From: Solitalea canadensis DSM 3403
GTDB lineage: Bacteria; Bacteroidota; Bacteroidia; Sphingobacteriales; Sphingobacteriaceae
Length of the DNA: 64,000 bases
Assembly: GCF_000242635.2 (NCBI RefSeq)
Contig: NC_017770.1
Coordinates: 3,298,669 to 3,362,668 of the forward strand
Direction: 5' to 3'
Part shown: piece after piece, positions 11,994 to 44,939 of the stretch
How positions within the stretch are numbered: the stretch's first letter is position 1
Layout: every line of letters begins with the position of its first letter
Translations under genes and position numbers: made by a program
Notes under the pieces: model-generated
Told to the model about the DNA's origin: nothing
Databases searched by the model: none
What the model saw: the letters and a program-made list of their open reading frames with translations, nothing else

Positions 11994-12974
11994 TTAATGA
12001 ATATAACTTTCTAAAATTTTAAATGCTGCATTCGTTTTTAATTCAACAATTTGAGTTGATGCAGGTATTAAAATACAATCCCCTTTTGCTACAGCCAATA
12101 CTTGATCATCAAATTGTAATACGTATGAACCTTCTAAACATACATGAATAACAAAGCTATCTAAGTTACTGTAATCTCTTACTACATTTTTATTGTAGGC
12201 CAATACATTAGTAGTAAAGTAAGGGCAATCTACTAACTCCACTACTTTGTTATCTGCTGCAACGTACTGAGTTTTATAATTATCATAGTAATTATAATCA
12301 ATAGCTGCTAATGCTTCCTGCACATGCAGTTCACGTTTATTACCTTTATCGTCAACTCTGTCGAAATCGTAAATACGATAAGTGATATCCGAAGTTTGCT
12401 GAATTTCTGCGATCAATAAACCCTTACCAATAGTATGAACTCTACCAGCCGGTAAAAAGAAAACATCATCAGCTGTAACTGCTTCTTTATTGAGAATATC
12501 GTTCAATTTTCCTTCATTAAATTTTTGAACATATATTTCCTCATTTACAGGTTGATTAAACCCTGATATTAGGGAAGCCCCTTCATCGGCTTGGATCACA
12601 TACCACATTTCCGTTTTACCGAAAGAATTATGACGTTTTCTTGCTAATTCATCATTGGGGTGAACCTGAATAGAAAGGTCGTCATTAGCATCAATAAATT
12701 TCACTAATAAAGGAAACTCATTCCCAAATCGTTCATAAACCGACCTCCCTACTAATGCTGCTTTTTTTTCTTCCAATAATGCTGATAAAGAATTTCCCGC
12801 CAAAGGACCATTTTCGACAATCGAAACATCACTTTTAACTCCGGAAATCTCCCATGTTTCACCACAGTTAGAAAGCGGAGAAAAATCTTTTCCTAATACT
12901 GTTTTTATCTTGCTGCCACCCCAGATCTTATCTTTAAAGATGGTTTTAAATTTTAAGGGATATAATTTGTTCAT
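11994..12974 (-). CDS. manA: Mannose-6-phosphate isomerase, class I (ManA-like)
   Basis: Interconverts fructose 6-phosphate and mannose 6-phosphate, feeding GDP-mannose synthesis or mannose catabolism. The 326-residue protein is the short bacterial form. Zinc ligands are visible: Gln103 and His105 in QVHPND, Glu122 in KTEMWYV and His180 in PAGRVHTI. The active-site block TYRIYDFDRVD follows. It is monocistronic, convergent with the barrel gene. Mannose released by the GH92 enzymes encoded 12 kb away would, after phosphorylation, pass through this enzyme; that link is inferred. Confidence 0.95.
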   Translation of the reverse strand: MNKLYPLKFKTIFKDKIWGGSKIKTVLGKDFSPLSNCGETWEISGVKSDVSIVENGPLAGNSLSALLEEKKAALVGRSVYERFGNEFPLLVKFIDANDDLSIQVHPNDELARKRHNSFGKTEMWYVIQADEGASLISGFNQPVNEEIYVQKFNEGKLNDILNKEAVTADDVFFLPAGRVHTIGKGLLIAEIQQTSDITYRIYDFDRVDDKGNKRELHVQEALAAIDYNYYDNYKTQYVAADNKVVELVDCPYFTTNVLAYNKNVVRDYSNLDSFVIHVCLEGSYVLQFDDQVLAVAKGDCILIPASTQIVELKTNAAFKILESYIH

Positions 12975-30816: not shown

Positions 30817-31953
30817 CTATTCTTCAAAAACCTTTATTTTCTTTTTCAACCTAAAGTTACCTCTATAACTGATATACAGCGTTTGAGAATAATCTAATTT
30901 CTTTGAGTTGTTCAAATCTATATAAGGCTCAATGCGGGCAGTTAGGTATAGGCTTCCAGCTAATTTGTAATCACCCATAATCCTGAAAAATAACAGATTC
31001 CTGTTTTCCTCCGTAAAGCCTTTATCAAGTGTACTCCTGGAAACCGAACTATATAATGGCGCTCCCTCTACATTAATGAATTTATTTCCATTGAAATAAC
31101 TGGTCATAAACTTGAAATACTTAAAGTCTGCGCCAATATTAAGGTATACAGCAGAGCCAGTTTGGAAAGGCAATAAGTCCCCCGACATTTCCCTTGATAT
31201 GACAAAATAGTTCTCTGCATATAACCGTTTCAGGAAACTGTCGAATTTATACGATGTCTTAACCCCTATGGCAGCATTATTTATCGTTTGAACGGGTGTG
31301 TTTAACGTATCTAACTGCCCTCCGGTATGAAATAATATCAACTGAGCAGGTACACTTAAATTAAACCGTTTTTTAGGATTCAATAGTTGAAACTCCGAAG
31401 ATATTCCGCCGGTAATTTTTTCGGATGACTCATCTCCCGGGTAAATGAATTTCTCCCAATTAACCCAAGTATCCAAAAATACACGCTTGCTATTGATATG
31501 AAATTGGGCACCGTATTCCAGGGATGGATAAATCAAACGTTCGTAATCATACAAGGGTTCAATATACCGGTGATTGATGTTTCCTTCAATTGCACCGAAA
31601 ACAAAATCAATCATATTCTTCTGATACTTTAATGAAAACACAGGGGCTACCTGACGGTATTTCCCTGATCCAAAATCTCCCTGAACTAAAATACCCGCCC
31701 TTAGTGACAGATTTTCATTCGGATAGTAAATCAGCGTTGGTGTAAAACGGGTGCCGAATAAGGTTTGTCCATCAGCAAACTTGTCAAAGTATTCATAATT
31801 ACGGAAGTAATTGAAACTATTAATATTAAGGAATAAACTTTGAGCTTTTGAGCTGTCGTGCTTAATGCGTTCTTCAAAATTGGAATGGTCTATTTGTGCA
31901 AAGGAAGAAATAGATGCCATGAATAAGGCACAAAAAAAGGCGATTTTTTTCAT
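30817..31953 (-). CDS. Putative outer-membrane protein of unknown function
   Basis: A 378-residue protein with a signal peptide (MKKIAFFCALFMASISSFAQ). The rest is rich in alternating aromatic strands (NLSLRAGILVQGDFGSGKYR, LYLTARIEPYIDLNNS, QTLYISYRGNFRLKKK), as in barrel-forming porins. No domain recognised. The start codon sits inside a hairpin (31939-31957), and the first 13 codons are nearly the same as in the upstream gene. It lies 30 bp after the DUF885 gene, so the two may be co-transcribed unless the hairpin stops polymerase. Confidence 0.75.
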   Translation of the reverse strand: MKKIAFFCALFMASISSFAQIDHSNFEERIKHDSSKAQSLFLNINSFNYFRNYEYFDKFADGQTLFGTRFTPTLIYYPNENLSLRAGILVQGDFGSGKYRQVAPVFSLKYQKNMIDFVFGAIEGNINHRYIEPLYDYERLIYPSLEYGAQFHINSKRVFLDTWVNWEKFIYPGDESSEKITGGISSEFQLLNPKKRFNLSVPAQLILFHTGGQLDTLNTPVQTINNAAIGVKTSYKFDSFLKRLYAENYFVISREMSGDLLPFQTGSAVYLNIGADFKYFKFMTSYFNGNKFINVEGAPLYSSVSRSTLDKGFTEENRNLLFFRIMGDYKLAGSLYLTARIEPYIDLNNSKKLDYSQTLYISYRGNFRLKKKIKVFEE

Positions 31954-31957
31954 CGCC
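31932..31957 (-). terminator. Terminator-like hairpin covering the start codon (first instance)
   Basis: On the minus strand GGCGAT-GAAAAAA-ATCGCC is followed by seven T. The ATG of the outer-membrane protein gene is made of the stem's last AT and the loop's first G. It fits both a terminator of the DUF885 gene upstream and a start-codon-masking element. Confidence 0.6.
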
Positions 31958-31983
31958 TCTAAAATACAATTCTGTTGAATGAT

Positions 31984-33282
31984 CTATTCAGATAAGTTCA
32001 AAAGACTTTCCAATAGTGAAAATGGAAGAGATCCGTTGTTGAGTATCTTATCATGAAAATTGCGAATATCAAAGTTGACTCCTTCTTTTCTTTGCAACAG
32101 TTGTTTCCATTGCAATATTTCCCCTGCGCCATATTTATAAGTAACCACCTGTGCAGGCCACCTTTTTATCCGGTTAATTTCCCGCATGGCAATTGCATCC
32201 TGGTTTTTAATATACTTTTTCCAGAATGCCAGCGCTTGCTCATCAGACCAACCATAATAATTAATTCCAACATCTAATGGCACCCGAACCGAACGCACAA
32301 TATCCCACTCCCATTTTCCCAATTCATCATAAATAGTTTTATACACACCTAACTCTTTACCTAGCTCCTCGGTGTAGGCTGCCCAACCTTCACTGTAACC
32401 AGGATACCAGAAAAGCTGCTGTATCGCAGATTCTTTTAAAGCTCCTTCAATAGAAATTTGATAATGATGTCCAGGTATACCTTCATGAATAAAAAGCCAG
32501 TCAATTTGTCGTTTACAGTAAGGTTTATCATAAAAATTGAAGTAGAATGTATTTTCATCATAATAACCGGGAGCCTGAACCAACGCATTATTCTTCCCTC
32601 GTTCAATCTTTAGATCGGGTATTGATTGCTGGTTAAAAATAGTACTTAAATTGCCTTGAATTGTTGTTTTTGCATGGTCAAACAATTTGGCGATAGTAGC
32701 CTCATCATTTACAAAAAACGAAGAGTCATTAAGGTAATTATAAAACTGTTCGTCTGAATATCCTGTTTTCAAGCGTATTACCTCAATTTGATTATTTACA
32801 CGATCAATTTCCGCAAGTCCCAACTTGTAGATCTGTTCAGGTGTAATAGCTGATGCAACCCATTTCTTTAGAAAATAGGCATACCATTCTTTACCGTTCT
32901 TAAGTTGATTAAGTCCGTTCTTCGTAATACTATCAGGTTTATTAGCCACCCACTTTTTCTCCAAAGCCAAACGCTCCAAATTCAAATTGGTCTCATATTG
33001 CATTAATTTATAATCAATGAGCTCCTTTTTCCCCAATTCTTCAATTTTTACATGTGAAAGTTGTTTACTTACATTTTTGAAAAAAGAAGTCTGTCTTTCA
33101 ATAGCCGATTGGTTTGATATTGCTTTCAAATTTTCAGTGTAAGCTAACTGGAGTGGCGGTAATTCAAATGCTTTTACACTATCAACAAACTGCTGTCCAA
33201 TCTGTTGAAATGTTAGCCTTTGCTGAGCTGAAATAGTTTTTACCCAAAAAAATAAGGCACAAAAAAGGGCGATTTTTTTCAT
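31984..33282 (-). CDS. DUF885 family peptidase-like protein
   Basis: Exported protein of 432 residues with signal peptide MKKIALFCALFFWVKTISAQ. The mark of the family is the metallopeptidase-like motif HEGIPGHH at residues 266-272, followed by GYSEGWAAYTEELG, with the likely third ligand Glu in that block. DUF885 proteins usually have some 550-600 residues, so this one is short, mostly at the N-terminus. Substrate unknown; probably a periplasmic zinc-dependent hydrolase. It follows hemJ with a 32-bp gap, and its start codon lies inside a terminator-like hairpin. Confidence 0.85.
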   Translation of the reverse strand: MKKIALFCALFFWVKTISAQQRLTFQQIGQQFVDSVKAFELPPLQLAYTENLKAISNQSAIERQTSFFKNVSKQLSHVKIEELGKKELIDYKLMQYETNLNLERLALEKKWVANKPDSITKNGLNQLKNGKEWYAYFLKKWVASAITPEQIYKLGLAEIDRVNNQIEVIRLKTGYSDEQFYNYLNDSSFFVNDEATIAKLFDHAKTTIQGNLSTIFNQQSIPDLKIERGKNNALVQAPGYYDENTFYFNFYDKPYCKRQIDWLFIHEGIPGHHYQISIEGALKESAIQQLFWYPGYSEGWAAYTEELGKELGVYKTIYDELGKWEWDIVRSVRVPLDVGINYYGWSDEQALAFWKKYIKNQDAIAMREINRIKRWPAQVVTYKYGAGEILQWKQLLQRKEGVNFDIRNFHDKILNNGSLPFSLLESLLNLSE

Positions 33283-33287
33283 CGCCC
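33261..33287 (-). terminator. Terminator-like hairpin covering the start codon (second instance)
   Basis: On the minus strand GGGCGAT-GAAAAAA-ATCGCCC is followed by six T, and the DUF885 gene's ATG is inside it. It lies 28 bp after the hemJ stop and could also be the hemJ terminator. Confidence 0.6.
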
Positions 33288-33314
33288 TAATATAAATAAA
33301 GTGTAATACGTATG

Positions 33315-33845
33315 CTATTGCTTCGATCTGTATCGTTTATAAATCTTCACAGCCATCATAATAATCATACTGAACAAAATGAGTCCCACGAAGCCCCATA
33401 TCCACGACACCGCGCTCTTAAGTATGACGATAAAGACAATGGCAAAAAGAAAAATGGTGGCCACTTCATTCCATATACGCAATTTGGTTGAGCTCCATTT
33501 ATAAACCCCATGTCTAAGCTGTTTCATGATCACCTGGCACTCGAAGTGATACCATAATAAACCCAAAACGAACATAAGCTTGACGATCATCCAAGGCTGA
33601 TGAAACCATTTATATTCGATCATCATCCATAAGCCGGAGATAACAGTGAGGATCATTGCCGGCGTTGTGATAATATTCCATAATTTGGATTCCATTACCT
33701 CAAACTGTTTTTGCAATATTTTCCGTTCCGATTCTTCACGCTCATTTGCTTCCGTATGATAAATGAATAACCTCACCATGTAAAATAAGCCGGCGAACCA
33801 GCTTACTACGAAAATGATATGAATAGCTTTGATGTATAAGTACAT
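33315..33845 (-). CDS. hemJ: Protoporphyrinogen IX oxidase, HemJ type
   Basis: Inner-membrane enzyme oxidising protoporphyrinogen IX to protoporphyrin IX, the step before iron insertion. The 176-residue protein has four or five membrane helices. HemJ marks: IKAIHIIFVVSWFAGLFYMV with the essential His in helix 1, MESKLWNIITTPAM and WMIVKLMFVLGLLWYH. Its place directly after hemE supports this over other CopD-like membrane proteins. The next gene downstream is the DUF885 protein. A repeat element separates it from hemE. Confidence 0.9.
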   Translation of the reverse strand: MYLYIKAIHIIFVVSWFAGLFYMVRLFIYHTEANEREESERKILQKQFEVMESKLWNIITTPAMILTVISGLWMMIEYKWFHQPWMIVKLMFVLGLLWYHFECQVIMKQLRHGVYKWSSTKLRIWNEVATIFLFAIVFIVILKSAVSWIWGFVGLILFSMIIMMAVKIYKRYRSKQ

Positions 33846-42926: not shown

Positions 42927-44939
42927 TCAATTACGGGCAACCGGATCAACCCAGTCGCCGTTTTCTTTGATCAGATTGATCAACTCGTCTACTGCGTGTT
43001 CGGCCGCTACATTTCGCTTAACCACTTCTTTTTCTTTGTAAAGTGTAATCACTCCTGGGCCTGTTCCTACATAGCCATAATCTGCATCAGCCATCTCACC
43101 AGGACCGTTTACAATACAGCCCATGATCCCGATTTTAATTCCTTTTAAATGATCGGTACGGCTACGGATAAGCTGGGTTGTCTCTTGAAGGTCAAACAAT
43201 GTTCTTCCACATGAAGGACAAGAAATATACTCGGTTTTCGAAATTCGTGTTCGCGTTGCCTGTAGAATCCCAAATGCAGTTGAATTGATTACTTTCGAAC
43301 TTACAGAATCACACTGAATCCAAAGTCCGTCGCCCAATCCATCTGTCAATAATGCTCCTACATCCGTAGAAGCCTCCAACTGAAAATCTTCTTCTGAAAC
43401 ATCTGCATAGATACGCTTGATAATTACCGGAATATCCAACTGCTGAATCATCAGGTCAAAGATAAACTGACGTTGCTCAGCCATTCCGTGGATACTGTTG
43501 GTCTCCAGTATCAGAACAAGTGTTTTATCAGCTGAAAGTGCTTTAATAAACGCATTGTAAATCTGTTCCGTCGACTCAAACAGCACGCTTATAGCTGCTT
43601 TAATAAAATTTAACTGGGTGTCTCGTTCTTCGGCATTGATATATTCTTCAACTGAAAAAACCGGATGAGCATTTTGCTGATCCTTCAGTGATTTCCAGGT
43701 TGAATAGTTATACAGTTGCTTAAGGTTACCCGGGAATGAAAATGAAGGTAAGGAATCACCCAGATACGCAAAATCGGCGGTTTGTTCAGTCAGATTGTAT
43801 TTATCCAATACTGCTGAATAATTATAACCAATAGATGAAAGCACAAACGGATCTTTAAGATTTTGCTGAGAAAGATCAACAATTACACGCGGCACATTAT
43901 GTCCGCCTATATTTTGTACTTCATGCGTTTTTCTCCGCTGATAAGAATATGGGTCGAAATTAGATGGGAACTGAACATCTGGTATAAATTCACTTGCTGA
44001 TTGATCAATCAGGTGAGTTCGTTTTGCATAACGATCAGCCAATGCTTTTGCAACCGGAGCTTCATATTCAGGTTCTTCTGTTAAAGAAACGCGAATAGTG
44101 TCGCCTAGTCCATCTTCAAGCAAGGTTCCAATCCCTACAGCCGACTTAATTCGCCCATCTTCACCGTCTCCTGCCTCGGTAACACCAAGGTGCAATGGAT
44201 AATTCATTCCTTCTGCAACCATTTTTTCCACCAGCATACGATAGGCTTGCACCATCACTTTAGGGTTGCTGGCTTTCATCGATATTACCAGGTTATGATA
44301 ATCCAGATCTGAGCAAATGCGGATAAACTCCATTGCCGACTCTACCATACCGATTGGAGTATCGCCATAGCGACTCATGATACGATCGGATAACGAACCG
44401 TGGTTAGTCCCGATTCTCATTGCTGTACCGTATTCCTTACAAATAGAAACTAATGGCGAAAAACGTTTACGTATCCGCTCTACTTCCTGTTCGTATTCAA
44501 GATCGGTGTAATCTATTTGTTGGAATTTCTTTTTATCTATATAATTTCCAGGATTCACACGCACTTTTTCCACAATACGGGCGGCCAGTTCTGCAGCATT
44601 AGGAGTGAAATGAATATCTGCAATCAAGGGAACATTGTACCCTCTGTGACGTAACTCTTTCTTTATCTCTGCCAGGTTTTGCGCCTCTTTCATGCTTGGC
44701 GCTGTAATACGAACATATTCACAACCTGCATCTACCATTCTAATGGTTTGCTCAACAGTTGCAAGCGTATCCATTGTATCGGTTGTGGTCATGGATTGGA
44801 TACGAATGGGATGATGGGCCCCCATTGCAATATCACCGATCGTAACTTCACGCGTTATAAAGCGCGAATAAGTTGTTAACGAATTACAATATTTCCCTTT
44901 TAAAGCTTTGATCTGATTAATATCAACTGCAGAATTCAT
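42927..44939 (-). CDS. ispG: 4-hydroxy-3-methylbut-2-enyl-diphosphate synthase, large form
   Basis: Iron-sulfur enzyme of the MEP isoprenoid pathway, converting MEcPP to HMBPP. At 670 residues it is the three-domain form of Bacteroidota, plants and Chlamydiae, with an insert of about 260 residues between the TIM barrel and the C-terminal domain. N-terminal marks: VTIGDIAMGAHHPIRIQSMT and ADIHFTPNAAELAARIVEKV. The C-terminal [4Fe-4S] cysteines lie in CPSCGRTLFDL and GIMGCIVNGPGE. Stand-alone gene on the minus strand ahead of hemA. Confidence 0.96.
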   Translation of the reverse strand: MNSAVDINQIKALKGKYCNSLTTYSRFITREVTIGDIAMGAHHPIRIQSMTTTDTMDTLATVEQTIRMVDAGCEYVRITAPSMKEAQNLAEIKKELRHRGYNVPLIADIHFTPNAAELAARIVEKVRVNPGNYIDKKKFQQIDYTDLEYEQEVERIRKRFSPLVSICKEYGTAMRIGTNHGSLSDRIMSRYGDTPIGMVESAMEFIRICSDLDYHNLVISMKASNPKVMVQAYRMLVEKMVAEGMNYPLHLGVTEAGDGEDGRIKSAVGIGTLLEDGLGDTIRVSLTEEPEYEAPVAKALADRYAKRTHLIDQSASEFIPDVQFPSNFDPYSYQRRKTHEVQNIGGHNVPRVIVDLSQQNLKDPFVLSSIGYNYSAVLDKYNLTEQTADFAYLGDSLPSFSFPGNLKQLYNYSTWKSLKDQQNAHPVFSVEEYINAEERDTQLNFIKAAISVLFESTEQIYNAFIKALSADKTLVLILETNSIHGMAEQRQFIFDLMIQQLDIPVIIKRIYADVSEEDFQLEASTDVGALLTDGLGDGLWIQCDSVSSKVINSTAFGILQATRTRISKTEYISCPSCGRTLFDLQETTQLIRSRTDHLKGIKIGIMGCIVNGPGEMADADYGYVGTGPGVITLYKEKEVVKRNVAAEHAVDELINLIKENGDWVDPVARN

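Follow-up and report, generated by a model that had tools for sequence, protein, structure and literature searches.

A terminator-like hairpin overlapping the start codons of two adjacent genes in Solitalea canadensis, probably copied along with a gene insertion

RNA elements that sequester a start codon include translational riboswitches and RNA thermometers. In hairpins of the phage T4 gene e type, the start is hidden in read-through mRNA, whereas mRNA from an internal promoter leaves it free. Another kind of hairpin, the rho-independent terminator, follows the stop codon of a gene; in E. coli its efficiency is near-maximal above about 27-30 nt past the stop codon and varies with sequence at 17-18 nt (PMC4824070). 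In Flavobacterium, mRNAs that are structured close to the start are translated less (PMC6847099). Leaderless mRNAs with a TAnnTTTG box near the ATG are described in Bacteroidota (PMC9723704, PMC6847099). They make up 5.5% of the mRNAs with mapped transcription start sites (TSSs) in F. psychrophilum (PMC9723704), and in F. johnsoniae the box lies 4-5 nt from the TSS (PMC6847099).

The locus of Solitalea canadensis DSM 3403 described here has traits of each of these systems. With rho-independent terminators after a stop codon it shares the GC-containing stem, the A-rich loop, the tract of 6-7 T and a spacing of 23-26 nt, but its stem holds the start codon of the next gene, its T tract is signal-peptide sequence and its hairpins are weaker than most in the genome. 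As in start-codon-sequestering RNAs, an AUG is paired in a stable local hairpin, although there is no aptamer and no sign of a switch. The logic of the T4 gene e hairpin may be shared if the genes' own transcripts begin inside the 5' arm, but the candidate promoter is only a five-of-six match. A box-like sequence at the same spacing recalls the leaderless Bacteroidota mRNAs, except that one nearly invariant position is mismatched and a hairpin lies across the start.

All coordinates are positions in the window, which is the whole stretch of 64,000 nt that was analysed. Genome statistics come from 40 stretches of 20 kb together with the window, an 864-kb sample of the 5.2-Mb genome, in which genes were called by a simple ORF-based procedure with ATG starts only and the weakest energy accepted for a terminator-like hairpin was -8 kcal/mol. 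The start folding of 627 genes was ranked by the energy from -20 to +30. The genes, the two copies of the start block and their hairpins are:

33315..33845, minus strand: hemJ-like gene (UPF0093; Pfam PF03653, E 5e-42), the upstream neighbour, with its stop 26 nt before hairpin 1
33251..33297, minus strand: start block, first copy, 47 nt (local alignment)
33266..33288, minus strand: terminator-like hairpin 1, AGGGCGAT-GAAAAAA-ATCGCCCT, -13.0 kcal/mol, T tract to 33261
31984..33282, minus strand: DUF885 gene, 432 aa, signal peptide MKKIALFCALFFWVKTISAQ (Pfam PF05960, E 8e-74; synteny)
31922..31970, minus strand: start block, second copy, 49 nt (local alignment)
31936..31960, minus strand: terminator-like hairpin 2, stem GGCGAT/ATCGCC with weaker outer pairs, -11.7 kcal/mol, T tract to 31932
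30817..31953, minus strand: outer-membrane protein (OMP) gene, 378 aa, LpxZ-family-like, signal peptide MKKIAFFCALFMASISSFAQ (NCBIfam NF052651; homologues in relatives)

The 19-nt palindrome GGCGATGAAAAAAATCGCC occurs exactly on the minus strand at 31939-31957 and at 33268-33286, against 0.03 occurrences expected in shuffles with 3 mismatches allowed. It is followed by 7 T in the OMP copy and by 6 T in the DUF885 copy, and the ATG of each gene (31953 for OMP, 33282 for DUF885) falls inside it. RNA folding of 41-nt pieces gave -12.1 kcal/mol for 31939-31957 and -13.5 kcal/mol for 33268-33286 (z -3.6 and -3.9), which confirms that a terminator-like hairpin overlaps both starts. The original prediction had the ATG as part of the stem; in both copies this holds for the A and the U, which are paired in the 5' arm, while the G lies in the loop. 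Both starts are among the most structured of the 627 genes, at ranks 2 and 5; the translational switch suggested in the original prediction is a possibility. The stem persists in folding predictions at all temperatures tested between 20 and 45 C, which speaks against an RNA thermometer. Rfam returned no family match at gathering level. A sub-threshold match to the glutamine riboswitch at 31788-31839 (plus strand, antisense in the OMP gene; 19.1 bits against a gathering level of 35) is most likely due to chance.

The block around the palindrome consists of an upstream TTAG, the hairpin with the ATG, the T tract and the first half of the signal peptide. The two copies, ATTGTATTTTAGAGGCG... (49 nt) and ATTTATATTAGGGCG... 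(47 nt), align with 2 mismatches and two 1-nt gaps, and their local score of 74, compared to at most 33 in 500 shuffles, bears out the proposal that the start region has been copied. The near-identity of the coding starts also stands, but over 11 codons (MKKIA(F/L)FCALF, with one amino-acid difference) and not 13, and the copied DNA extends upstream of the ATG as well. The spacers upstream of the block are not significantly similar (9% of shuffles align equally well). The outer stem pair differs between the copies, either as A-T versus G-C or as a 1-nt deletion plus a T to C change. We rejected covariation between the two copies, as the alignment with a 1-nt deletion explains this difference at least as well, and a difference at the outer stem pair is too thin a basis for the argument.

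In the 864-kb sample we detected 292 terminator-like hairpins, of which 226 are intergenic. For the intergenic hairpins, the median distance from the upstream stop to the stem is 24 nt and the commonest distances are 20-30 nt, and this peak is therefore a clear signal of intrinsic terminators in the genome. Both hairpins described here have a stable stem directly before the T tract at this typical distance, 26 nt (DUF885 copy) and 23 nt (OMP copy) past the preceding stop codon. At -13.0 and -11.7 kcal/mol they are less stable than the genome terminator median of -16.9 kcal/mol, and of 147 near-stop terminators 82% and 88% are stronger, so that leaky termination is to be expected. Of 77 codirectional gene pairs 20-60 nt apart, just one more carries a terminator-like hairpin whose end falls within -70..+10 of the start, so true terminators in gaps as short as these would themselves be out of the ordinary.

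Called starts are covered by four of the 292 hairpins, and only in the OMP and DUF885 genes is the covered start believable. One of the other two (L084) was rejected as a probable start mis-call beside an apparent tmRNA or tRNA 3' end, with the real start probably downstream; the other (L088) was rejected as probably mis-called too, since its true signal peptide lies downstream. With two believable cases in 292, we rejected the idea that hairpins of this genome are generally tied to an ATG. Searches of the 5.2-Mb genome that tolerated 2 mismatches for the core and 3 for the downstream half of the block found no copy beyond these two. GATGAAAAAAATC also occurs at two further sites, both without the GC stem, and the 17-nt core was found in none of 300 other genomes of the family.

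The OMP gene matches NCBIfam NF052651 (LpxZ) with E 1e-62, yet below the curated cut-off; LpxZ is a lipid A deacylase of Porphyromonas (PMC11784228). The gene adjoins haem-synthesis genes in much of the family and is absent from the other three genomes of the genus. The gene order in family relatives is hemE-hemJ-OMP without DUF885. In 33 of the 45 OMP homologue loci a codirectional hemJ precedes the OMP gene, in several of them by only 16-51 nt, and no relative of DUF885 was found in the flanks of those hemJ-OMP loci. Compared with this gene order, DUF885 is an insertion between hemJ and OMP, and the block copies are direct repeats that flank exactly this insert.

DUF885 belongs to a subfamily of roughly 430 aa that is scattered through the class (8 of 395 genomes at E 1e-60) and is distinct from the DUF885 proteins of roughly 600 aa. 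Its best relative is found in Aquimarina (44%), and others reach 32-42%. No compositional sign of a recent transfer of the gene was detected (GC 36.0% and GC3 31.9%, gene means 38.2% and 32.6%). The signal peptides of its homologues are unlike MKKIALFCALF and many OMP homologues begin with MKK, which indicates that the OMP start was probably the donor of the duplicated block. The simplest account, and the most likely one, is an entry of DUF885 into the hemJ-OMP junction with a copied OMP start at its head, which needs one local duplication. The overlap of hairpin and start is real, locally unique and was duplicated once together with the gene insertion.

Our leading reading, to which we assign an even chance, joins this history to a function: the OMP start block was duplicated with the entry of DUF885, and the block is a weak terminator and a cover of the AUG that lowers expression of the next gene. 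The start block of the LpxZ-like OMP gene would have been copied once, locally, as DUF885 came between hemJ and OMP. In RNA running in from the upstream gene, the block would fold as a weak intrinsic terminator 23-26 nt past the stop, and the fold would cover the AUG, so that the next gene would be both less transcribed and less translated. The gene would still be expressed, either by enough transcription leaking through or by transcription that begins at a nearby promoter. Partial termination and poor translation of read-through RNA are expected from the position, form and strength of the hairpin together with the E. coli and Flavobacterium reports. On function alone, the block is most likely a leaky terminator or attenuator of upstream transcription, doubling as a start region; actual termination, hiding of the start and the normal expression route of each gene are what we infer.

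We see the locus as an isolated curiosity that offers a clean case for testing how stop and start signals overlap. If the hairpins are functional, a single short sequence acts at once as terminator, start region and start of a signal peptide, and one local duplication sufficed to supply a newly arrived gene with all three. The locus would then be a compact natural test of the interplay of termination, start accessibility and leaderless translation in Bacteroidota, which to our knowledge are without Shine-Dalgarno signals. Should the hairpins prove inactive, the case would show that codons of a signal peptide are able to imitate terminators, which is a trap for terminator prediction. Furthermore, recombination between the direct repeats would excise DUF885 cleanly.

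The main rival to the terminator or attenuator reading, and a serious one, is an accident followed by copying, in which a GC stem arose by chance at the OMP start and was duplicated with the DUF885 insertion, with little regulatory effect. We regard this as unlikely but well worth weighing. A chance GC stem is possible because signal peptides of the MKK-I-A-F-F type spell A-rich and then T-rich DNA, with ATG-AAA-AAA-ATC and TTT-TTT being the usual codons for this motif. One independent origin suffices, since the second hairpin copy came from the duplication and needs no second accident. The lack of conservation, with a terminator-like hairpin over the start in none of the 45 OMP homologues, speaks for an accident too, as does the normal absence of terminators from short codirectional gaps. 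Against it, a recoding simulation with the codon usage of the genome and random upstream sequence gave a hairpin of -11.6 kcal/mol or stronger at a rate of 7e-5 per signal-peptide start, or about 0.04 per genome before any distance to an upstream stop is required, and among the 46 MKK starts in the sample the next most stable after these two reaches only -5.0 kcal/mol. A single chance origin is thus unlikely, yet it stays within reach because the finding was selected as striking.

Two putative promoter elements upstream of the start codons bear on a further alternative:

33287..33294, minus strand: -7-promoter-like box TATATTAG, 4 nt before the DUF885 ATG, five of six consensus positions, mismatch at -6
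31959..31966, minus strand: -7-promoter-like box TATTTTAG, 5 nt before the OMP ATG, five of six positions

Each gene may have an insulated leaderless start, at which its own -7 box yields an mRNA that begins at the AUG, is without the 5' arm and is translated freely, so that only read-through RNA folds and is stopped or hidden. We consider this improbable. The arrangements TATTTTAG-N5-ATG and TATATTAG-N4-ATG fit the F. johnsoniae spacing, and the leaderless mRNAs of F. psychrophilum provide a precedent. In addition, perfect TAnnTTTG boxes in our genome peak at 3, 4 and 5 nt before the ATG (5, 9 and 3 of 624 genes, and none at 9-15 nt), as in a leaderless-like class. In the predicted fold, a leader of at most 2 nt weakens the structure to -8.3 kcal/mol (OMP) and -3.8 kcal/mol (DUF885) and frees the AUG, but with a leader of at least 3 nt the hairpin forms again. 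Both starts carry TAnnTTAG, one mismatch from TAnnTTTG, so that of the six box positions of a leaderless promoter five are present at the right spacing and the nearly invariant T at -6 is missing. At control positions, about 1.4-2.6% of genes have a match of at least five of six at two adjacent spacings by chance, and both boxes together count as a single independent event. Moreover, no perfect box at the 4-5 nt spacing was found among 134 closely packed genes, and a TTG at -33 is absent at both starts. The -7-like boxes allow near-leaderless transcripts that escape the hairpin; with a mismatch at a nearly invariant position and about 2% chance matches, a leaderless promoter is only a lead.

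About 3% of the sampled genes have a perfect TAnnTTTG 3-7 nt before the ATG, apart from the usual peak at 16-21 nt; examples in the window are the genes at 42927-44939 and 11994-12974, both on the minus strand. Such genes likely have leaderless mRNAs. No link between leaderless-type starts and nearby terminators was seen (1 of 22).

A bolder combination, a self-insulating start, is more doubtful still. Here 21-25 bases would halt transcription arriving from upstream and conceal the AUG of read-through RNA, whereas transcripts begun at the adjacent box would start at the AUG and escape, and the unit could be duplicated whole, equipping an incoming gene with a signal-peptide start, a promoter and insulation. 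Least probable by far is the mobile start cassette suggested in the original prediction, or a repeat family inserting at gene starts: its two copies do stand at two unrelated genes, but they are adjacent and the only ones genome-wide (2-3 mismatches), and neither the 300 family genomes nor the 45 homologues have the core or the hairpin, respectively.

One of the OMP homologues (G026, L042:1261-1310) has an unrelated terminator-like hairpin, AAGGATCGTATACACGATCCTTTTTTG, in codons 8-15 of its signal peptide.
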